Source: a bacterium (GTDB lineage: Bacteria > UBP15 > UBA6099 > JAJRTR01). Taken from it: 24,939 bases of DNA. Of this stretch, positions 1,893 through 12,788 are shown piece after piece; position 1 is the first letter of the stretch; each line of letters opens with the position of its first letter. A model generated the notes under the pieces. That model saw nothing but the letters and a program-made list of their open reading frames with translations. It was not told the origin of the DNA and did not search any database. Location of the stretch: contig JAJRTR010000199.1 of assembly GCA_024278215.1 (NCBI GenBank), positions 1 through 24,939 of the forward strand, given 5' to 3'. The position numbers and the translations under genes were made by a program.

Positions 1893-3866
1893 ATGGCAGA
1901 AGAAAAAAAAGCCAAACAGAAGTACTATGGCCCGGCGGACAAAAGGACGATCGATCCGGCATCCGAGGCGGTCATAGCAAACAGGTGCGATGACGGGTTT
2001 ATTGACCTGTTCGCCCGCAGTGATGCGATGTACCCCCGCTGCAAGTTCGGATCGGAAGGCGTATGTTGCAGAGTATGCGCGATGGGACCCTGCCGCGTGC
2101 AGCCGGACAAACCCGGCAAGGACAGGGGTGTTTGTGGAGCGAACGTCGACACGATCGTCGCCCGCAACTTCATCAGGATGGTGGCGGCGGGAGCGGCGGC
2201 GCACTCGGATCACGGCAGAGCCGTGTGTGAGACACTGCTCGCAGTTGCCAAGGGGCACAGTAAGGATTACGAGATCAAGGACGAACAGAAAGCGATCAAG
2301 GTCGCTCTCGACATGGGTATTGAAGTCGGCGACAGGCCGATAGTCGATATCGTCAAGGACATTGCCGAACTGGCGCTCGCACAGTACGGACAGCAGCAGG
2401 GCGAAGTACTATATACTAAGAAGGCCCCGCTGAAACTCCAGGAAAAATGGCGCGAACTCGGTGTCATACCCCGCGGAATCGACCGCGAGATAGTCGAGAT
2501 ACTGCACCGCACACACATGGGTGTTGACCACGATTACGAACACCTGCTGCTCCAGGGCGCAAGGGCTGCTCTGGGTGACGGCTGGGGCGGTTCGATGATC
2601 GCCACAGAATTACAGGACATCCTTTTCGGAACACCCGAACCGATAACCTGCGATTGCAATCTCGGAGTGCTCGAAGAAGACAAAGTCAATATCATCGTTC
2701 ACGGACATGAACCACTGCTCTCCGAGATGATAGTCGCCGCGGCGAGTTCAGAGGATATGCTCAAGGAAGCCGAAAAGGTCGGCGCTAAAGGTATTTCCCT
2801 GAGTGGAATCTGCTGCACAGCGAACGAAATCCTTATGAGGCACGGCGTACCGCCGGCCGGCAATTTCCTTCAGCAGGAACATGCAATTATGACCGGCGCG
2901 GTTGACGCAATGATAGTTGACGTACAGTGCATCATGCCGTCATTGCCAGAAGTTGCCAGGTGCTACAACACAAAAGTGATTTCGACATCGCCCCTGGCGA
3001 AGTTCCCGGGCGCCGAACACATTCAGTTCGACGAGGACGATGCTTTGAATATCGCAAAGAAGATTGTTAAAAAAGCAATCGAAAACTTCCCGAACAGGCC
3101 GGATAAGGTTTTCATTCCGGACGAGAAAGAACAATTCATCGGCGGTTTCAGCCACGAGACGATAAACTATCTGCTCGGCGGAACATTCCGCGCTTCATAC
3201 AGGCCGCTGAACGATAACATCATCAACGGCAAGATTCGCGGCGTGGCCGGTGTGGTCGGGTGCAACAACCCAAAGGACACACACGACTGGGGCCACACCG
3301 AGATGATCAAAGAGCTGCTCAAAAACGACGTGCTCGTGCTCGTCACCGGCTGCACGGCTATCGCAGTCGCAAAACAGGGCCTGTGCCGCCCGGAAGCGGC
3401 AGCGAAATATTGCGGACCCGGCCTGGCGGAAGTGTGCGAAACAGTCGGCATACCGCCGGTGTTGCACATGGGTTCATGCGTGGACAATTCGCGCATTCTG
3501 ATAGCCGCGACAGCGATGGTCAAAGAAGGCGGACTCGGCGACGATATATGCGATCTGCCCGCAGCAGGCGCGGCGCCCGAGTGGATGAGCGAGAAAGCTA
3601 TCTCCATCGGACAGTATTTCGTATCGTCCGGTGTTTACACGATGTTCTGCACGACATTCCCGTTCACAGGCTCGAAAAACGTGATGGAAGAGCTGACGGT
3701 GGGAATGGAAAAGAAATACGGCGGAATGTGGGATTTCGAGATGGACCCGGTTATCGCCGCCCAGAAGATGATTCAGCACATCGACAAGAAGCGCAAGGCT
3801 CTCGGCATAGACAAAGCAAGAGAACGCGTGCTCTTCGATATGGAAAAACGCAGGGAAATGGCGTGA
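1893..3866 (+). CDS. acsA: Carbon monoxide dehydrogenase catalytic subunit of CODH/ACS
   Basis: This is the Ni-Fe-S enzyme that reduces CO2 to CO for acetyl-CoA synthase, or the reverse, in the cytoplasm. The 657 residues match the bacterial AcsA/CooS length. N-terminal cysteines C50, C58, C59, C62, C67 and C81 fit the D- and B-cluster ligands. C-cluster ligands are visible as H272 (VHGHEP), C307/C308 (GICCTANE), C346 (VDVQC), C457 (VVGCNNP), C487 (VTGCTA) and C529 (HMGSC). All expected metal ligands are present, so the enzyme should be active. ATG follows the strong site GGAGGGGAGG. The gene sits between cooC and acsB, which favours the acsA (synthase-associated) role over a free-standing CooS. 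No CooF-type ferredoxin or hydrogenase gene is adjacent. Confidence 0.97.
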   Translation: MAEEKKAKQKYYGPADKRTIDPASEAVIANRCDDGFIDLFARSDAMYPRCKFGSEGVCCRVCAMGPCRVQPDKPGKDRGVCGANVDTIVARNFIRMVAAGAAAHSDHGRAVCETLLAVAKGHSKDYEIKDEQKAIKVALDMGIEVGDRPIVDIVKDIAELALAQYGQQQGEVLYTKKAPLKLQEKWRELGVIPRGIDREIVEILHRTHMGVDHDYEHLLLQGARAALGDGWGGSMIATELQDILFGTPEPITCDCNLGVLEEDKVNIIVHGHEPLLSEMIVAAASSEDMLKEAEKVGAKGISLSGICCTANEILMRHGVPPAGNFLQQEHAIMTGAVDAMIVDVQCIMPSLPEVARCYNTKVISTSPLAKFPGAEHIQFDEDDALNIAKKIVKKAIENFPNRPDKVFIPDEKEQFIGGFSHETINYLLGGTFRASYRPLNDNIINGKIRGVAGVVGCNNPKDTHDWGHTEMIKELLKNDVLVLVTGCTAIAVAKQGLCRPEAAAKYCGPGLAEVCETVGIPPVLHMGSCVDNSRILIAATAMVKEGGLGDDICDLPAAGAAPEWMSEKAISIGQYFVSSGVYTMFCTTFPFTGSKNVMEELTVGMEKKYGGMWDFEMDPVIAAQKMIQHIDKKRKALGIDKARERVLFDMEKRREMA

Positions 3867-3919: not shown

Positions 3920-6154
3920 ATGTCAAAGATAATCGCAGCAGCAGGCATTCGGGGCGCGCACACCATCGTTGACAGGGTCGAAGCAGACTTGAAACGCGCT
4001 ATCGACAAATTCGGTCCCAACCAGGAAGTCGCATTCCCGAACACTGCTTACTATCTGCCTATAATTTATGGTATCCTCGGAGATAAAATCGAAAAGCTCT
4101 CCGATATGGAACCTGTAATTGCAAAATGCAAGACACTTTTACCGCCAATGGTAAAAGAGAAGAATCACCTTCCATATCTCGCGCCCGCGCTGGACGCAGG
4201 CATGGCATCACTTTTCGCCCAGGAAATGTCCGAGGGCATACGCTATGTTGAAGACCCCGATTTCTATGTTCAGGGCGAAGACCCCGAAGAGGGCAAAATC
4301 TGGCTCGGCGCGGCAGACGACGTTATTCTAAGAAAACGCGGAGTCGAGTTCGTCGACGGCACAGCTCCCGGATTCGCAGCCATCGTCGGCGCGGCTCCCA
4401 CCTCGGCAATCGCCTCGAAACTCGCTCTCGAAATACAGGAAAAGAACCTCTACTGCTTCATGGCGGCCAGCCATGACGGGAAGACATTCTCTGAACAGCT
4501 TGTTGAAGAAGGCGTCCAGATCGGCTGGCCCACAAGGCTCGTTTCCTTCGGTCCGGACATCAGCGCCGCCGTCTTCGCAATCGGCTTTGCCACGCGCGCG
4601 GCCATGAGCTTCGGAGGCATCGAAGCCGGTGATTTCCGCAAAATCCTTATCTACAACAAGGATCGCTGCTATGCCTTCGTCATGGCTCTCGGCACAGTCA
4701 CAGAAGAGTGGTACGCCACTGCGCTGGGCTGCGTCAACTACGGATTCCCGGTTATTGCCGACACACCGATACCCGAGGTCCTGCCCACCGGTATCTGCAC
4801 CTATGAGCACGTCGTTTCCAATATTCCTTACGACACCATGGTCCAGAAGGCTGTCGAAGTGCGCGGACTGAAGGTCGAAGTCGCCAAGGTAGACATCCCG
4901 CTCTCTTACGGGCCCGCCTTCGAGGGCGAGCGCGTGCGCGGCGCGGACATCTATCTGGAATGCGGCGGCGGCAAGAGCGACATGTGCGAGTATGTCGAAA
5001 CAAAGGAAATGGACGATGTCGAAGACGGCAAGATCACTGTCGTCGGACCCGACATATCCGATATTCAGAAAGACCCTTCGCCTTACCTCGGCAAAAAAGG
5101 CTATCCGATCCTGCCGCTTGCCATTCATGTCGAAGTCGCAGGACGCAAGATGGAATCAGATTATGAGCCCATCCTCGAACGCCAGGTTCACCACCTGCTC
5201 AACTACTGCCAGTTCATCATGCACATCGGACAGAGGGACATCGCCTGGCTGCGCGTCTCGAAGAACGCGGTAGATAAAGGATTCACTTTCGGCACCATCG
5301 GCACCATACTTCACGCCATGCTGCACAAAGACTTCGGAGCGATCTTCGACAAAGTCCAGATCACTCTCTACACCGAGCAGAAAAAGGTTGAAGAACTTGT
5401 CGCAAAAGCAAGAGCGGCATACAAGGAACGCGACTCCAGGGTCGAGAACATGACGGACGAAACGACAGACACATATTACTCGTGCACACTGTGCCAGTCC
5501 TTCGCCCCCAACCACGTATGCGTCGTCAGCCCCGAAAGAACGGGCCTGTGCGGATCATATAACTGGCTGGACTGCAAAGCATCAAACGAGATCAACCCGA
5601 CAGGCCCCAACCAGCCGGTCGAAAAAGGTGAAGTGATAGACGAACGTCTCGGACAGTGGAAGGGCGTCAACGACTTCGTGTCCGAAGCGTCGCGCGGAAA
5701 CATCACTCACTACAACTTCTACAGCATCATGAACCAGCCTATGACCACATGCGGCTGCTGCGAGTGCATCGCGGCGGTACTGCCCATGTGCAACGGCCTC
5801 ATGACCGTCAACCGTGACTATACCGGCATGACCCCCTGCGGCATGAAGTTCAGCACACTCGCCGGAACAGCCGGCGGCGGATTGTCCACACCGGGATTTG
5901 TCGGGCACAGCAAATACAACATCATCCAGAGAAAATATCTTATCGCCGAAGGCGGTCTTTTGAGGATGGTGTGGATGCCCAAGATGCTGAAAGAGGAAAT
6001 GGCGGACCTGCTCAAAGCGAGAGCCGAAGAACTCGGCGATCCGGACCTCATCGACAAAATCGCAGACGAAACAGTCGGCGTGACCGAAGATGAAATCCTC
6101 CCCTTCCTCCAGGAAAAGGGACATCCGGCTCTTACGATGGAATCAATAATTTGA
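3920..6154 (+). CDS. acsB: Acetyl-CoA synthase (CO-methylating), bacterial type
   Basis: The enzyme condenses CO, a corrinoid-bound methyl group and CoA to acetyl-CoA at the Ni-Ni-[4Fe4S] A-cluster. Its 744 residues include the N-terminal CODH-docking domain that archaeal CdhC lacks. A-cluster ligands are C522 and C525 (SCTLCQSF), then C534 and C544, plus the C611-G612-C613 motif that binds the distal nickel (TTCGCCECI). Each lies 16 residues after its Moorella AcsB counterpart as I remember that numbering. The start has a textbook ribosome site (AAGGAGGT) 7-9 nt upstream. It follows acsA by 53 bp with no terminator between, in keeping with the tight AcsA-AcsB complex. No damage is seen. Confidence 0.97.
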   Translation: MSKIIAAAGIRGAHTIVDRVEADLKRAIDKFGPNQEVAFPNTAYYLPIIYGILGDKIEKLSDMEPVIAKCKTLLPPMVKEKNHLPYLAPALDAGMASLFAQEMSEGIRYVEDPDFYVQGEDPEEGKIWLGAADDVILRKRGVEFVDGTAPGFAAIVGAAPTSAIASKLALEIQEKNLYCFMAASHDGKTFSEQLVEEGVQIGWPTRLVSFGPDISAAVFAIGFATRAAMSFGGIEAGDFRKILIYNKDRCYAFVMALGTVTEEWYATALGCVNYGFPVIADTPIPEVLPTGICTYEHVVSNIPYDTMVQKAVEVRGLKVEVAKVDIPLSYGPAFEGERVRGADIYLECGGGKSDMCEYVETKEMDDVEDGKITVVGPDISDIQKDPSPYLGKKGYPILPLAIHVEVAGRKMESDYEPILERQVHHLLNYCQFIMHIGQRDIAWLRVSKNAVDKGFTFGTIGTILHAMLHKDFGAIFDKVQITLYTEQKKVEELVAKARAAYKERDSRVENMTDETTDTYYSCTLCQSFAPNHVCVVSPERTGLCGSYNWLDCKASNEINPTGPNQPVEKGEVIDERLGQWKGVNDFVSEASRGNITHYNFYSIMNQPMTTCGCCECIAAVLPMCNGLMTVNRDYTGMTPCGMKFSTLAGTAGGGLSTPGFVGHSKYNIIQRKYLIAEGGLLRMVWMPKMLKEEMADLLKARAEELGDPDLIDKIADETVGVTEDEILPFLQEKGHPALTMESII

Positions 6155-6331: not shown

Positions 6332-7675
6332 ATGGCACTTACAGGAATTGATATTTTCAAAAGGCTGCCGAAGACAAACTGCGGTGATTGCGGAGTGCCC
6401 ACATGTCTTGCTTTCGCCATGGCTCTTGCAGCCGGCAAAGCGGACCTCGAAAAGTGCCCGCATGTATCCGATGAAACAAAAGAAGCCCTCGGCGCGGCCT
6501 CGGCGCCACCCATCAGGCCATTCAAGATCGGTGTTGGAGACGATGCGGTTGCAGTAGGCGGCGAGACAGTTGAATTCCGCCACGAAAAAACCTTCGTAGC
6601 GCCCACACCGATTGCGGTTCTCGTCTCGGCGGATGATGACGATGCCGTGATTGAAGCAAAGGTTAAACAACTCGACGATCTGCAGTTCGACAGGGTCGGC
6701 GTGATTCTCAAACCGAACATCGTAGCAATCAAGGACCCCGCCGGCGACAAGCTCGCGGACCTGGTCGCTAAGGTTCAGGGTATTAAGAAAGCGCCGTTGA
6801 TACTTATCAGCGACAGCGTAGACGCACTCAAAGCAGGCGCGGCAGCCGCCGGCGACAACAAACCGGTTCTTTATCCCGTTACTGCCGACAACGCCGATGC
6901 CATGGCCGAAATCGGCAAGGAAACCGGCTGCCCGCTCGGACTCAAAGCAGACAGTTACGACGCTCTTTCGGAACTCGCCGAAAAACTCATAAAGGCCGGC
7001 ATCAAGGACATGCTGCTCGACACCGGCGCGCGCGACTTGAAACAGGCTTTCCAGGATAGTGTCGCCATCAGAAGATTCGCTCTGAGGGCGGAACACAGGC
7101 CGCTCGGGTTCCCCACTCTCACGTTCCCGTGCGAAATGTCCGACGATCCCATCATGGAAGCTATGATCGCCGCCACTTTCATCTCGAAATACGGCGGGAT
7201 CATTGTACTCAGCGACCTCAAGGGCGAAGTCGTATTCCCGCTCATGCTGGCGCGGCTCAACATCTTCACTGATCCGCAGCGCCCGATGGCTACTTCCGAA
7301 GGCATCTATGAGATAGGCAAACCGACAGAAAAATCTCCACTCCTGATTACATCGAACTTCTCCCTTACCTACTTCATCGTATCGGGCGAGATCGAGGCGA
7401 GCCGCGTTGACTCATGGCTCCTTATCAAGGACACGGAAGGTCTCTCGGTCCTCACGGGCTGGGCGGCGGGAAAGTTCGTCGCAGACGCTATCGGTCCCTT
7501 CGTCAAGAAGAGCGGCATCGAGGACAAGATAGCTCACAAGAAAATCGTCATCCCCGGATTCGCGGCGCAGATCAGCGGCGAACTCGAAGAAGAACTACCC
7601 GGCTGGGAAGTTATCATCGGACCGCGCGAGGCATCTCACATCGCGGCTTTCCTTAAAGGATGGGCGCCGGATTAA
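6332..7675 (+). CDS. acsC: Corrinoid iron-sulfur protein, large (gamma) subunit
   Basis: With AcsD this forms the corrinoid protein that accepts the methyl group from methyl-THF (via AcsE) and delivers it to AcsB. The 447 residues begin with a [4Fe-4S] domain, C17, C20, C25 and C42 (CX2CX4CX16C), followed by a TIM-barrel domain and a C-terminal B12-binding domain, with GWAAGKFVADAI near residue 373 and IIGPREASHIAAF near the end. ATG 6332 lies 9 nt after AGGAGG (6317-6322). A second ATG at 6328 is out of frame and stops after seven codons. Its partner gene acsD is five open reading frames downstream rather than adjacent, an unusual split. Confidence 0.95.
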   Translation: MALTGIDIFKRLPKTNCGDCGVPTCLAFAMALAAGKADLEKCPHVSDETKEALGAASAPPIRPFKIGVGDDAVAVGGETVEFRHEKTFVAPTPIAVLVSADDDDAVIEAKVKQLDDLQFDRVGVILKPNIVAIKDPAGDKLADLVAKVQGIKKAPLILISDSVDALKAGAAAAGDNKPVLYPVTADNADAMAEIGKETGCPLGLKADSYDALSELAEKLIKAGIKDMLLDTGARDLKQAFQDSVAIRRFALRAEHRPLGFPTLTFPCEMSDDPIMEAMIAATFISKYGGIIVLSDLKGEVVFPLMLARLNIFTDPQRPMATSEGIYEIGKPTEKSPLLITSNFSLTYFIVSGEIEASRVDSWLLIKDTEGLSVLTGWAAGKFVADAIGPFVKKSGIEDKIAHKKIVIPGFAAQISGELEEELPGWEVIIGPREASHIAAFLKGWAPD

Positions 7676-7798: not shown

Positions 7799-8698
7799 AT
7801 GGACACAGTCTATTTGACAGGTGAAAACCTGAATATCATGTCGAAAACGATCGGCCCGGCTATGAAGGAACGCAATCCCGAACCCATCAAAGCTATGGCG
7901 CTCGAAATGGATAAGGCCGACATCGACTATATCGACATCAATCTTGGTCCCGCCCGCAAAAACGGCGAAGAGATGATGCAGTTCGTTGTGAAAACAGTGC
8001 AGGAAGTTACGGACAAACCGCTCTTTCTCGACACGACAAACGCATCCGCCATTGAAGCGGGACTCCAGGTTTACGAACGAAAATGTGACGCGAAACCAGT
8101 TATCAACTCGATCTCATGCAGGCCCGAACGCATGGAAATGCTTATGCCCGTCGCCAAGAAGTACGACGCGGCATGTGTGGGGCTTCTCATGGGCGTCGAG
8201 GGCATCCCGCGCGACGAAAACGAACGTGGTATGCTCTGCACGGAGTTTATGATGAAGGCCGATGAATACGGAATCGAACACGACGACATTTTTCTCGACC
8301 CGATCGTGGTTCCCGCGCCGTCACAGCAGATACAGGTGGCGGGCTGCACCAACTTCATGATGATGTTCCGCGACATCGCTCCGGGTTGCAGGGGCACGTG
8401 CGGACTCTCGAATATCTCGAACGGCGCGCCGACACACCTGCGAGGCATTATCGACAGAACCTACATGATCATCATCAACAGTTTCGGCATGAGCGGCGCT
8501 ATAATGAACTTCACCGACCAGAAACTCATTGACCTTATGCGCGGCAAACAGCCCGAAATCTATGACTTTGTCGTCAGTGTTTTCAACGGTGAAGAAGTAG
8601 ACGTCGCTTCACTCGACAAGGAAAAACAGGATTACTACAAAACCGTTAAAATCATAACGGGCGAAATCCTTTATTCCGACTCATGGCTTGATCTTTAA
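7799..8698 (+). CDS. acsE: Methyltetrahydrofolate:corrinoid/iron-sulfur protein methyltransferase
   Basis: AcsE transfers the methyl group from 5-methyl-THF to Co(I) of the AcsCD corrinoid protein, linking the two branches of the pathway. It is a pterin-binding TIM barrel: GENLNI at the N-terminus, IDINLGPA (about 45-52), LDTTN with D78, VINSIS with N103, LDPIV with D167, and GLSNISNG with N205, which line up with the folate-binding and catalytic residues of Moorella AcsE. At 299 residues it is somewhat longer than the roughly 262-residue Moorella protein; much of the surplus is a C-terminal acidic stretch after about residue 255. The GGGAGG site is 8-9 nt before ATG. The acsV start follows within 25 bp, so the two are probably cotranslated. 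Confidence 0.93.
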   Translation: MDTVYLTGENLNIMSKTIGPAMKERNPEPIKAMALEMDKADIDYIDINLGPARKNGEEMMQFVVKTVQEVTDKPLFLDTTNASAIEAGLQVYERKCDAKPVINSISCRPERMEMLMPVAKKYDAACVGLLMGVEGIPRDENERGMLCTEFMMKADEYGIEHDDIFLDPIVVPAPSQQIQVAGCTNFMMMFRDIAPGCRGTCGLSNISNGAPTHLRGIIDRTYMIIINSFGMSGAIMNFTDQKLIDLMRGKQPEIYDFVVSVFNGEEVDVASLDKEKQDYYKTVKIITGEILYSDSWLDL

Positions 8699-8719: not shown

Positions 8720-10738
8720 TTGGTGAAAATGAATAAAACAGGCGAAGAAATTCTTGCGGTAAAGATACTGCCGGAAGAATCGGTGATAAGGGTGGAGAGC
8801 GGTACCAACCTGCTCGAGGCTTTAGTGTCCGCAGGCATAAGGATAAACGCCCGTTGCGGCGGCGCCGGCGCGTGCGGCAAATGCAAAGTCGTCATAAAGG
8901 ACGGAACCGTTGAAGAGCTGAGCGACGAGAAGTCGCGGCTCACGGCTGAAGATAAGGAAAAGGGCATCAGACTGGCATGCCGCAGCATTGTACGCGAAGA
9001 CATTATTGTGGAAGTGCCGTTCGAGTCGAGGGTCAGAAAACTCGCCATGGGCGAGAAGGATACCGTGGAGGGGCGCAAGCGCATCCCGCCATGCGAAAAG
9101 GTAGATTACTTTTCACACGGCACACACGACGCGCCTGTCAGAAAGTTCTATATCGAACTCGCTGAACCTTCACTCCAGGACAACAGCGGCGACCTTACAA
9201 GGCTTTTCGGAGCCCTGCACAGGGAACACGGCATAGATGTCCGCGAGATAGACCTGCCGGTCCTTCGCATACTGCCCGGCATTCTTCGTGAAGCTGAATG
9301 GAAAGTCACCGCCAGTATCCTCTGCGAAGGCACAAATTGCGAGAAAGGTGCCGAAAACTGCTCGATCAAAAACTGCTCGAACCTAAGCATTGTCAGGGTC
9401 GAACCCGGCGACACTACCGCATCTCAATTTGCTCTTGCCGTCGATGTCGGCACCACTTCCATACACGTCCAGATCGTAGACGTGGTCAACAGAAAACCGG
9501 TCTGCAAGTCGGCTGAATATAACGGCCAGACCGCTTTCGGGGAAGATGTCATATCTCGCATAGTCTACTCGCTTAAAGACGGCCACCTGGAACAACTCCA
9601 GCGCGCCGCCGCCCGCACCATCAACGAGCTTCTCAAGGAATTGCTCGGCGAGGCCGGGCTCACAGCTTCAGACATTTCCTTTATCACGGCGGCAGGCAAC
9701 ACAACTATGACCCAACTGCTCGCCGGTATAAACTCGAAGCACCTCCGGGAAGCACCCTATGTGCCCACTGTGAATGCCCTTCCATGGCTCAAAGCCGAAG
9801 ACATCGGCATTGACGTGGAACCCAACACGCCTGTTTATCTCTTCCCCGGCGTCGCAAGCTACGTCGGCGGAGACATAGTTTCAGGAATTATGGGGTTCGG
9901 CCTCGCACGAATGGACGAACTCACTTTATATCTCGACCTTGGCACCAACGGCGAAGTTGTCGTCGGCAACAAGGAATGGATGATGACGGCCTCTTGCTCC
10001 GCGGGCCCCGCTTTCGAAGGCGGCGGCCTCACATGCGGCATGAGGGCCACTCTCGGCGCTGTCCAGGATTTCTTCATGGACCCCGATACAAAGGAACCCG
10101 TCGTTATCACCATCGGCAATAAAAAGCCCATCGGTGTATGCGGCTCCGGCGTTATCACCATCCTGGCGGAACTCCTCCGCTTCGGCATTCTCCAGCAGAA
10201 CGGCAAGCTCAACCCCGACACAGGTTCCGACAGAGTCCGCGAAGGCGAAAGCGGCCTCGAATATGTTCTCGTCTGGAAAGAGAAATCCGGCAGCGGTGAA
10301 GACATCATCATCACCGAAGCCGACCTGGATAACATCCTGCGCGCAAAGGGCGCGGTTTATGCAGGTTGCGCTTCTCTCATCAAGCAGGTCGGACTCACCT
10401 TCGACATGCTACAGAAAGTAGTTTTAACCGGCTCTTTCGGCAACTACGTGGACATCCGGAGCGCAATAACAATAGGGCTCCTGCCCGACCTGCCGCTCGA
10501 TGTCTACTGCTTTATCCCCAACGGCTCACTGCTGGGCGCGCGTCTCGCTGCCTTCAGTTGCGCACTCACCGGGGAGGCGGAACAAATCGCTAAATCTATG
10601 ACCAACATCGAACTCAGCGAAGACTCTACGTTCATGGACGGCTACATGGCGGCGATGTTCCTGCCGCACACTGACACGTCGCTGTTCCCTACGGTCAGCG
10701 CCGAACTGGAAAAGCTGAAAGAAGGGTACAAATCATGA
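8720..10738 (+). CDS. acsV: ATP-dependent reductive activator of the corrinoid protein (RACo)
   Basis: This protein uses ATP to return inactive Co(II) corrinoid protein to Co(I). The N-terminus is a plant-type [2Fe-2S] ferredoxin domain with C46, C52, C55 and C87 (RCGGAGACGKCK and LACRS). A linker/middle region follows, then an ASKHA-type ATPase domain from about residue 238 (LAVDVGTTS) with LDLGTNGE and CSAGPAFEGGG, the DUF4445/RACo arrangement. The 672-residue length fits the family. The start is uncertain: TTG 8720, GTG 8723 and ATG 8729 are in frame, and AAAGGA (8705-8710) is best spaced for TTG or GTG. Its stop overlaps the start of the second cooC by ATGA. Position next to acsE supports this substrate over other corrinoid methyltransferase systems. 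Confidence 0.92.
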   Translation: MVKMNKTGEEILAVKILPEESVIRVESGTNLLEALVSAGIRINARCGGAGACGKCKVVIKDGTVEELSDEKSRLTAEDKEKGIRLACRSIVREDIIVEVPFESRVRKLAMGEKDTVEGRKRIPPCEKVDYFSHGTHDAPVRKFYIELAEPSLQDNSGDLTRLFGALHREHGIDVREIDLPVLRILPGILREAEWKVTASILCEGTNCEKGAENCSIKNCSNLSIVRVEPGDTTASQFALAVDVGTTSIHVQIVDVVNRKPVCKSAEYNGQTAFGEDVISRIVYSLKDGHLEQLQRAAARTINELLKELLGEAGLTASDISFITAAGNTTMTQLLAGINSKHLREAPYVPTVNALPWLKAEDIGIDVEPNTPVYLFPGVASYVGGDIVSGIMGFGLARMDELTLYLDLGTNGEVVVGNKEWMMTASCSAGPAFEGGGLTCGMRATLGAVQDFFMDPDTKEPVVITIGNKKPIGVCGSGVITILAELLRFGILQQNGKLNPDTGSDRVREGESGLEYVLVWKEKSGSGEDIIITEADLDNILRAKGAVYAGCASLIKQVGLTFDMLQKVVLTGSFGNYVDIRSAITIGLLPDLPLDVYCFIPNGSLLGARLAAFSCALTGEAEQIAKSMTNIELSEDSTFMDGYMAAMFLPHTDTSLFPTVSAELEKLKEGYKS

Positions 10739-11508
10739 AAACCGCAACTATTGCTGTAGCAGGGAAAGGCGGCACCGGCAAGACCACTACCTGTGCTCTC
10801 ATGGTGCGCTACCTCATAAAGAACGGGCTGACTCCTATCCTTGCGGTAGATGCCGACCCCAACACAAACCTGGCCGAATCGCTCGGCTCGTCTCCCGATG
10901 ATTCCATCGGCGGCGTTCTCGCAGATTTCATGGAAAGCAGAGCTTCCATCCCACAGGGAATGACAAAGGAAGCTTTTCTCGAATTGAAACTAAACGAAGC
11001 TCTCGAAGAAACAAGCGATATCGATTTCCTCGTCATGGGCCGCAAAGAGGGACAGGGTTGTTACTGCTACCCCAACGCAATCCTCAAAAACTACATCGAT
11101 AAGCTCTCTACCAACTACCGATACGTTATCGTCGACAACGAAGCCGGCATGGAATGTCTGAGCAGAAAGACGATCGCCGATATATCGATTCTCGTTCTCG
11201 TGTCGGACCATTCTGTAAAAGGGCTTCGCGCAGCGAGACGAATCAATGAACTGGTGGATGAGTTAAAAATCGAGGTGGAAAAACGCTACCTTATCTTAAA
11301 CAGGTATAACAGCGATAATGAGGACCTGCTTCGCAAGTTTGTGGACGATGTGGAATCGGAAAAAGTGTTTAAAGTGCCGGACAGTAAAGAAATAGTCGAA
11401 GCGGACGCCAGGGAAACATCCTTCCTCGAATTGTCCGACGACATCGACGCGGTAAAATCAGTAAACGCATTTATGGAAGAAGCGCTCGGCGAGGCCGTCA
11501 AAGCCTGA
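10735..11508 (+). CDS. cooC: CooC/AcsF-type nickel-insertion ATPase (second copy)
   Basis: This is a second MinD-like maturation ATPase of 257 residues, paralogous to the first gene of the operon. It has a Walker A motif AGKGGTGKTT (residues 9-18), VDADPNTN (38-45), the metal-binding C109-X-C111 pair (GCYCYPN) and the VDNEAGMECLSR switch segment. Translation is coupled to acsV by a 4-bp ATGA overlap. It differs clearly from the first copy (GCYCYPN against GCICPES; VDNEAG against MDMEAG), so it is an old paralogue rather than a recent duplicate. In related clusters the CooC-like ATPase near the corrinoid genes is called AcsF and has been linked to ACS or CODH maturation. Which client this one serves here is inference. 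Confidence 0.88.
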   Translation: MKTATIAVAGKGGTGKTTTCALMVRYLIKNGLTPILAVDADPNTNLAESLGSSPDDSIGGVLADFMESRASIPQGMTKEAFLELKLNEALEETSDIDFLVMGRKEGQGCYCYPNAILKNYIDKLSTNYRYVIVDNEAGMECLSRKTIADISILVLVSDHSVKGLRAARRINELVDELKIEVEKRYLILNRYNSDNEDLLRKFVDDVESEKVFKVPDSKEIVEADARETSFLELSDDIDAVKSVNAFMEEALGEAVKA

Positions 11509-11555
11509 ACCGGACGATTGCATATTCCATCAACGAATATTTTGGAGGTAAAATC

Positions 11556-11777
11556 ATGGCGGAAATGGTAGAAAAAGAAATGTTTGACGGCAAAAAAGTC
11601 AAACTCATCGGCCCCGATTATGACGCGGGCTCACTCGCAGGAGGAACATCCTATAGCTGGAAAAGTAACATCGTCGGCAGAGACCAGTACATCAAGTATG
11701 TTTCGGAATCCGAAAGATACTGGTACACTCCGATGGATCAGTGGTTCGGCAGCGAAAAACGCAAGAACCCTGCATAA
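11556..11777 (+). CDS. Small protein of unknown function within the acs operon (73 aa)
   Basis: I do not recognise this protein. The ATG is preceded by a strong site, GGAGGT (11543-11548), and the frame is clean over 73 codons. It begins with an acidic/polar stretch, MAEMVEKEMFDGKKVKLIGP, has a glycine-rich turn (SLAGGTSYS), and is notably aromatic in its second half: six Tyr and three Trp in all, including ERYWYTP and DQWF. It ends in a basic tail, EKRKNPA. There are no cysteines, signal peptide or membrane segment, so a soluble, non-metal-binding small protein is likely. It lies 47 bp after the second cooC and 54 bp before acsD on the same strand. A 6-bp hairpin (ATATTC 11522-11527 with GAATAT 11535-11540) precedes its ribosome site. 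A role with the corrinoid protein or cluster maturation is only guilt by association. Confidence 0.8.
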   Translation: MAEMVEKEMFDGKKVKLIGPDYDAGSLAGGTSYSWKSNIVGRDQYIKYVSESERYWYTPMDQWFGSEKRKNPA

Positions 11778-11793
11778 AAAGGAGCATCAAATA

Positions 11794-11832
11794 ATGTTTG
11801 AAACCTGTAGCAAAGAATCTGATACCTTATAA
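11794..11832 (+). CDS. Possible 12-codon leader peptide coupled to acsD
   Basis: An ATG at 11794, 9 nt after AAAAGGAG (11777-11784), opens a reading frame encoding MFETCSKESDTL. Its TAA stop overlaps an ATG start of acsD (TAATG). The ribosome site is better than anything directly before ATG 11832, which suggests that ribosomes load here and re-initiate at acsD. It may instead be chance, with acsD starting at TTG 11847 from its own GGGGGTGG site. No regulatory codon run is obvious. Confidence 0.4.
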   Translation: MFETCSKESDTL

Positions 11833-12788
11833 TGGGGGTGGACTCATTGGCTTTAGAAATTCCAAAACAGAGATACTCAGGAACGATTAAGGAAATACCC
11901 GTAGGCAAAGAAGGAAACCAGCTGGTGGTCGGAGGCGAAACAGCATTCCCCTTCTATTTCTTCGAAGGCGAAATGCCCAACAGACCCCGTATCGCAATGG
12001 AAGTCTACGACGAAAAACCCGAGGAATGGGCACCGGTAGTCATGGAGCCCTTCGCGGATGTTCTCGATGACCCGGTCGCATGGGCCAAACTCAACGTCGA
12101 GAAGTACAACGCGGAAATTATCGCTCTGCAACTCGTCAGCATCGACCCTAACGGAACAAACGCATCCGCTGAATCTGCGGCTGAAACAGCACAGAAAGTC
12201 GCGGATGCCGTCGACGTTCCCGTCATGGCGCTCGGTGTCAACAATGTCGAAAAGGACATGGAAGTTCTCCGCCTCATCGCTGAAAAATGCGAAGGCCGGA
12301 ACCTCATAATCGGCCCGGTAACTGAAGGCAATCACAAACAGATCGGTGCCCCGTGCATTGGCTACAAGCACACTGTCATGGCATCCACGCCTATCGACGT
12401 TAATCTCGCGAAACAGCTCAACATCCTGCTCACCACTCTCGGCGTCAAGGAAGACAAACTTATCATCGACCCGACAACCGGCGCTCTCGGCTACGGCATG
12501 GAATACTGCTACACCGTTATGGAACGCATCAGGATGGCCGCCATCGCTTCCAACGACACTCAACTCCAGTATCCATTCTTCTCCAACGTAGGCAAAGAAG
12601 TATGTAAAACAAAAGAGGCGAAACTCGGCGACGATGACGCGAGATACGGCGACCCGGCTACTCGCGGAATTATCATGGAATGTGTAACCGCTGTCTGCCT
12701 CTTACTCGCAGGCTCCGACATCATATCCGTCAGGCATCCGAAAACTGTCGAAATGCTCAATAAGTATCTCGACTTCTTTCTCGCCTGA
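11832..12788 (+). CDS. acsD: Corrinoid iron-sulfur protein, small (delta) subunit
   Basis: AcsD is the TIM-barrel partner of AcsC in the corrinoid iron-sulfur protein. The 318 residues show EIPKQRYSGTIKEI at the N-terminus, TAFPFYFFEGEMPNRP, AMEVYDEKPEEW, LQLVSIDPNGTN, TPIDVNLAKQLNILL, IIDPTTGALGYGMEY and a C-terminal VRHPKTVEML, all family hallmarks. The start is uncertain. ATG 11832 overlaps the stop of a 12-codon frame. TTG 11847 (giving MALEIPKQ, the usual family N-terminus) has GGGGGTGG (11834-11841) at good spacing and may be the real start. It is the last gene of the operon; a weak hairpin plus T7 follows. It is separated from acsC by acsE, acsV, a cooC and two small frames. Confidence 0.94.
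   Translation: MGVDSLALEIPKQRYSGTIKEIPVGKEGNQLVVGGETAFPFYFFEGEMPNRPRIAMEVYDEKPEEWAPVVMEPFADVLDDPVAWAKLNVEKYNAEIIALQLVSIDPNGTNASAESAAETAQKVADAVDVPVMALGVNNVEKDMEVLRLIAEKCEGRNLIIGPVTEGNHKQIGAPCIGYKHTVMASTPIDVNLAKQLNILLTTLGVKEDKLIIDPTTGALGYGMEYCYTVMERIRMAAIASNDTQLQYPFFSNVGKEVCKTKEAKLGDDDARYGDPATRGIIMECVTAVCLLLAGSDIISVRHPKTVEMLNKYLDFFLA

Follow-up and report, generated by a model that had tools for sequence, protein, structure and literature searches.

P73, a conserved small protein encoded in CODH/ACS operons and linked to AcsD by gene order and gene fusion, is a candidate docking subunit of the corrinoid iron-sulfur protein

We describe P73, a 73 aa protein encoded in bacterial CO dehydrogenase/acetyl-CoA synthase (CODH/ACS) operons, which forms a family of its own and is tied by synteny and gene fusion to AcsD, the small (beta) subunit of the corrinoid iron-sulfur protein (CFeSP). 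We propose that P73 is a small accessory subunit of CFeSP in one clade of CODH/ACS systems, most likely an AcsD-linked docking adaptor, and put the probability of this reading at roughly one half. CODH/ACS stands at the centre of the Wood-Ljungdahl pathway, which is often regarded as the oldest route of carbon fixation, and AcsD is one of the proteins that carry the methyl group in that pathway.

The P73 gene was found in a 24,939 nt contig (the window; JAJRTR010000199.1, assembly GCA_024278215.1) of a bacterium of the UBP15 lineage. The ORF occupies positions 11556 to 11777 of the forward strand, runs from an ATG start to a TAA stop and translates to the 73 residues MAEMVEKEMFDGKKVKLIGPDYDAGSLAGGTSYSWKSNIVGRDQYIKYVSESERYWYTPMDQWFGSEKRKNPA; a Shine-Dalgarno sequence, GGAGG (11544 to 11548), lies 7 bases 5′ of the ATG. 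A preliminary description, made from the sequence alone, had reported a small gene with a strong ribosome site between an ATPase gene and acsD, and both the gene and its position were borne out. The gene order in the window is fhs (end)-cooC-cooS-acsB-acsC-acsE-acsV-cooC-P73-acsD-folD, so that P73 is flanked by the second cooC-type gene (10735 to 11508), the product of which we take to be a CooC/AcsF-type ATPase and which is the upstream neighbour in many loci, and by acsD (11847 to 12788).

The neighbouring genes, all on the forward strand, make up a conserved operon. The identity of acsD rests on homology to the AcsD part of a fusion protein (L138); that part matches the solved structures 2h9a_B and 4djd_D of the CFeSP small subunit as well as the Pfam family CdhD (PF03599). 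Its start is probably the TTG at 11847, with GGGGGTGG upstream, rather than the ATG at 11832 given by mechanical ORF calling, because relatives begin at the matching codon. The acetyl-CoA synthase gene acsB (3920 to 6154) was identified by phmmer against solved ACS structures (E 2e-195) and by PF03598, and the CO dehydrogenase gene cooS/acsA (1893 to 3866) by its place in the operon and by homology to the PF03063 part of another fusion (L147). Two further ORFs of the conserved operon are presumably acsC, the large subunit of CFeSP (6332 to 7675), and acsE, the methyltetrahydrofolate:corrinoid methyltransferase (7799 to 8698); the ORF at 8720 to 10738 we take to be acsV, the reductive activator of the corrinoid protein.

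P73 is a genuine gene and evolves under strong purifying selection. It is present in all seven genomes examined of the window's phylum, the other six copies sharing 46-51% identity with that of the window, and lies between cooC and acsD in every one. A scan of genome contigs with the single sequence gave no match, and a profile of seven relatives was needed; with it, 33 named loci were found, 27 of them outside the window's group, in Dehalococcoidia, Desulfomonile and other 'Deltaproteobacteria', Myxococcota, Candidatus Zymogenus and a Spirochaetes metagenome-assembled genome (MAG). Wider genome searches raised the total to 96 loci with 94 distinct sequences, spread over the UBP15-like lineage, Dehalococcoidia, Desulfobacterota, Myxococcota, a Spirochaetota MAG and others. 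Across 14 independent close pairs, dN/dS lay between 0.00 and 0.16 (median 0.05). Homologues beside acs genes and purifying selection, both proposed as checks in the preliminary description, were thus found, the former among 96 loci with conserved gene order.

The family consensus is ...V.[VI]LG.TYE.GkP.....WR.K...R.E.l.YL...ERYW[YF]S.[DE]W[FY]GSEKRKxPA, with W35, G65, S66, E67, K68, R69 and the terminal Ala invariant or nearly so, and the family alignments carry the signature RYW[YF]...GSE[KR]RKxPA at the end of the protein. Since 91 of the 96 proteins end exactly six residues past GSE, and 89 of the 96 end in Ala, the position of the C-terminus is itself conserved. The window's copy has six Tyr, three Trp, a basic tail and no Cys, as had been described, but freedom from cysteine does not hold as a family trait: the copies of two loci (L008 and L010) have two Cys each.

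That the protein matched no recognised family was upheld. When P73 and 27 relatives were scanned singly, no Pfam, NCBIfam or PHROG family was matched beyond chance. The best Pfam hit, PF25658 FV_peptidase, reached 15.4 bits (E 0.013) against a curated cut-off of 27 bits and was matched by one of 27 members; NCBIfam gave nothing for the window protein and a lone hit at E 0.047 among the 27 members; both were rejected as chance, as were weak PHROG hits. PDB sequences gave no match (best profile hit E 0.55, to an unrelated protein), nor did phage records and viral contigs. Our searches of the open-access literature turned up no account of this gene.

P73 is linked to AcsD by gene order and by fusion. 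In 82 of the 96 loci its gene stands immediately 5′ of acsD, and in another 12 it forms the C-terminal domain of an AcsD fusion, so that it adjoins or is fused to AcsD in 94. The other two are L186, where P73 stands at a contig end, and L148, the one true exception, in which acsD is encoded on the opposite strand some 5 kb off and P73 stays upstream of cooS. The fused chains are 474-513 aa long, with AcsD at approximately residues 1-307 and P73 as the last 42-68 aa, separated by a linker of about 115-145 aa that includes a short conserved segment. No separate P73 gene was seen in any of the 12 fused loci. In most of the fusions (L135-L146), the stretch between AcsD and P73 carries an additional conserved piece of about 50 aa (EGALCEIVQIMDMP...LAPG.A.ALIK), which gave no Pfam match.

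Three Desulfomonile-like loci (L021, L147 and L149), considered as exceptions in which P73 precedes cooS, were rejected as such: Pfam shows that the gene directly after P73 encodes an AcsD-CooS fusion (PF03599 and PF03063 in L147). These single chains of about 1130 aa (L021:6500-9892, L147:3887-7282 and L149:3922-7362) join the CFeSP small subunit to CO dehydrogenase.

The suggestion that the small protein is tied to the corrinoid protein is therefore supported by the synteny and the natural fusions. The preliminary description had offered a small subunit, a chaperone or an inhibitor, of the corrinoid protein or of its activator. The permanent fusions speak for a subunit or docking element and make a transient chaperone less likely. 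AcsV, the activator, is also a less likely partner, because P73 sits in many operons without acsV nearby (the Dehalococcoidia loci, and UBP15 loci L010 and L013).

P73 is nearly confined to genomes that encode acetyl-CoA synthase. Co-occurrence with acsB was seen in 66 of 72 P73-positive genomes. In a broad sample of 193 genomes, AcsB (PF03598) was present in 23 and P73 convincingly in 10, all within the 23 (Fisher p 7e-11), seven of the ten coming from the window's own phylum and an eleventh, weak hit (G134) being left out. Among 395 genomes of the phylum of L031, AcsB occurred in 252 overall and in 51 of the 57 with P73 (p 5e-6); in a 251-genome sample of the phylum of L020, the five with P73 were all among the 38 with AcsB. 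A four-genome phylum, with ACS in all four and P73 in none, says little at that size. The lack of a PF03598 hit in six P73-positive genomes is likely due to missing assembly, and P73 still adjoins acsD wherever the locus was examined. Most of the ACS-positive genomes sampled do not encode P73; many ACS systems work without it, so that the chemistry does not depend on it.

Mapped on a tree of AcsD, the presence and absence of P73 take five changes, whereas shuffling gave mean values of 24-32 for the larger groups, and the AcsD-P73 fusions form one clade with a support of 93. This history fits a single gain followed by several losses, with one fusion.

We compared five proteins (AcsD, AcsC, AcsB, CooS and AcsE) for alignment columns that are conserved where P73 is present and changed in several lineages lacking it. 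Such columns clustered only in AcsB, at residues 197-345 (4508 to 4954 in the window), and no clustering was seen in the other four proteins. This region holds 23 of 39 columns at a threshold of two lineages and 14 of 19 at three, where 27% would be expected. The scan gave p<0.001 at 90% conservation with two or three lineages and 0.001-0.09 at other settings. This footprint in AcsB is exploratory, as it emerged from a search of five proteins over a range of thresholds and the rows lacking P73 group together on the tree. Ten pseudo-loss controls drawn from P73-positive subclades gave no such concentration in AcsB, save for one control with a single hit.

Genomes fetched later gave the same picture. 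In 29 P73-less rows, conserved residues were lost at 14.5% inside the region and 4.6% outside it; in 22 P73-positive rows, the losses were 2.8% and 1.9%. At similar divergence, seven divergent P73-positive rows lost 3.7% inside and 3.9% outside, compared with 12.0% and 4.1% in 41 P73-less rows, and the excess loss appeared in 10 of 12 P73-less clades (p=0.002). AcsB 197-345 is thus conserved with P73 and repeatedly changed without it. Strong change in this region was observed in seven P73-lacking genomes of the phylum of L020 (L232, L233, L234, L235, L237, L240 and L243), several of them small and in one or a few contigs.

Alignment to ACS structures places the region in the second half of the ACS N-terminal domain and the first stretch of the middle domain. 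The N-terminal domain of Carboxydothermus hydrogenoformans ACS comprises residues 2-315, and in a published AlphaFold3 model of the ACS-CoFeSP complex it lies against AcsD, the beta subunit of CoFeSP (PMC12289521).

Our data are consistent with a model in which P73 would link these two proteins. We infer that P73 would be held by or near AcsD and would reach the N-terminal/middle domain of ACS, with the C-terminal segment of P73, which is aromatic and basic ([E/L]RYW[YF]...W[FY]GSEKRKxPA), and the preceding helix holding CFeSP near the ACS N-terminal domain. Such an arrangement would favour the meeting of the methyl-corrinoid with cluster A, and so efficient methyl transfer. The natural AcsD fusions lend indirect support to P73 being a stoichiometric subunit of CFeSP or CODH/ACS.

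The AcsB footprint would also suit a factor that acts on ACS, and the strongest competing explanation, which we regard as improbable, is that P73 is an assembly or maturation factor, serving either the corrinoid or Fe-S loading of CFeSP or the Ni loading of ACS together with the neighbouring CooC/AcsF-type ATPase. A cooC gene is often right beside P73, as in the window, and P73 has no enzyme signature. However, in many loci it is folD, not cooC, that lies immediately upstream; the footprint falls in the N-terminal and middle domains of ACS, whereas cluster A is in the C-terminal domain; and permanent fusion to AcsD, as in 12 genomes, would be unusual for a transient chaperone.

AlphaFold2, run with 27 relatives, predicted a hairpin plus one helix for P73, with low confidence (pLDDT 65.7). 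A complex with AcsD had been proposed for prediction, and for this an artificial chain was built from P73, the intergenic codons (stops read as Gly) and AcsD, with nine rows paired; AcsD was mostly well folded, and P73 was left undocked, with confidence there mostly below 50. Given the artificial chain and the small number of paired rows, the outcome counts as a weak negative, and it would also suit a partner other than AcsD alone.

The missing docking also bears, weakly, against a second and somewhat less probable alternative, namely that P73 serves only to stabilise the structure of AcsD, or of the AcsC-AcsD heterodimer, and makes no contact with ACS. The tight synteny with acsD and the C-terminal fusion would be expected of such a stabiliser, but neither AcsD nor AcsC shows a co-variation cluster, and the long linker of the fusions suggests reach rather than tight packing. 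Least probable is a regulatory or inhibitory subunit that idles CFeSP or ACS, for instance by plugging a site with its tail: the strictly placed C-terminus is what a pocket-fitting tail would have, but P73 is operon-encoded without any regulator-like domain, and its one-to-one fusion with AcsD means that there it cannot vary independently.

Comparison with known parts of the machinery sets P73 apart. The epsilon subunit (CdhB) of the archaeal ACDS complex is likewise an extra small subunit in one CODH/ACS branch only (PMC11474084), but it has a Rossmann fold and binds the alpha subunit of CODH, whereas P73 has 73 aa, no PDB match and a tie to AcsD. P73 shares its operon with AcsD and is directly fused to it in 12 genomes, yet has no CdhD (PF03599) match, and AcsD works without P73 in most of the ACS-positive genomes sampled. 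Like CooC/AcsF and AcsV, P73 is an accessory gene of the operon; unlike them, it has no nucleotide-binding or ferredoxin features, and it is present in operons without acsV nearby.

Other appendages of AcsD offer a further parallel. Like P73, they are joined to AcsD and probably link CFeSP to partners, but their sequences are unrelated to it, and two of the three types occur in P73-less lineages. In seven P73-less loci (L159, L161, L163, L164, L165, L167 and L170), AcsD has an Ala/Lys/Glu-rich tail of about 200 aa with a short conserved peptide at its end (e.g. VDKLLAQVNRVNRRN; an example gene is L159:4993-6579), possibly another CFeSP tether. Single chains of about 880-990 aa at L158:11199-13853 and L169:11190-14168 join methylenetetrahydrofolate reductase (MTHFR; PF02219), TPR repeats and AcsD, and L160 and L166 were assigned to the same type by length and N-terminus. 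The third type is the AcsD-CooS chain. In one genome without P73, a 227 aa multi-cluster ferredoxin-like protein with Fer4 domains is encoded between acsD and cooS (L162:13142-13825). The long linker of the AcsD-P73 fusions, together with the AcsD appendages of P73-less lineages, would fit a recurring need to tether CFeSP to its partners.

Overall, P73 is probably an overlooked small part of the CODH/ACS machine, because it is a companion of AcsD and in some bacteria is even fused to it. It was missed by the family databases searched and is common to several phyla, including Chloroflexota and Desulfobacterota. More tentatively, a whole clade of bacterial CODH/ACS may possess a subunit, previously unrecognised, by which the corrinoid protein is coupled to the ACS N-terminal domain, giving a tethered methyl-transfer complex unlike the free-standing CFeSP of model acetogens, with different AcsD tethers in other lineages. 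P73, or the AcsD-P73 form, may offer a more stable complex and a handle on the channelling of methyl groups.
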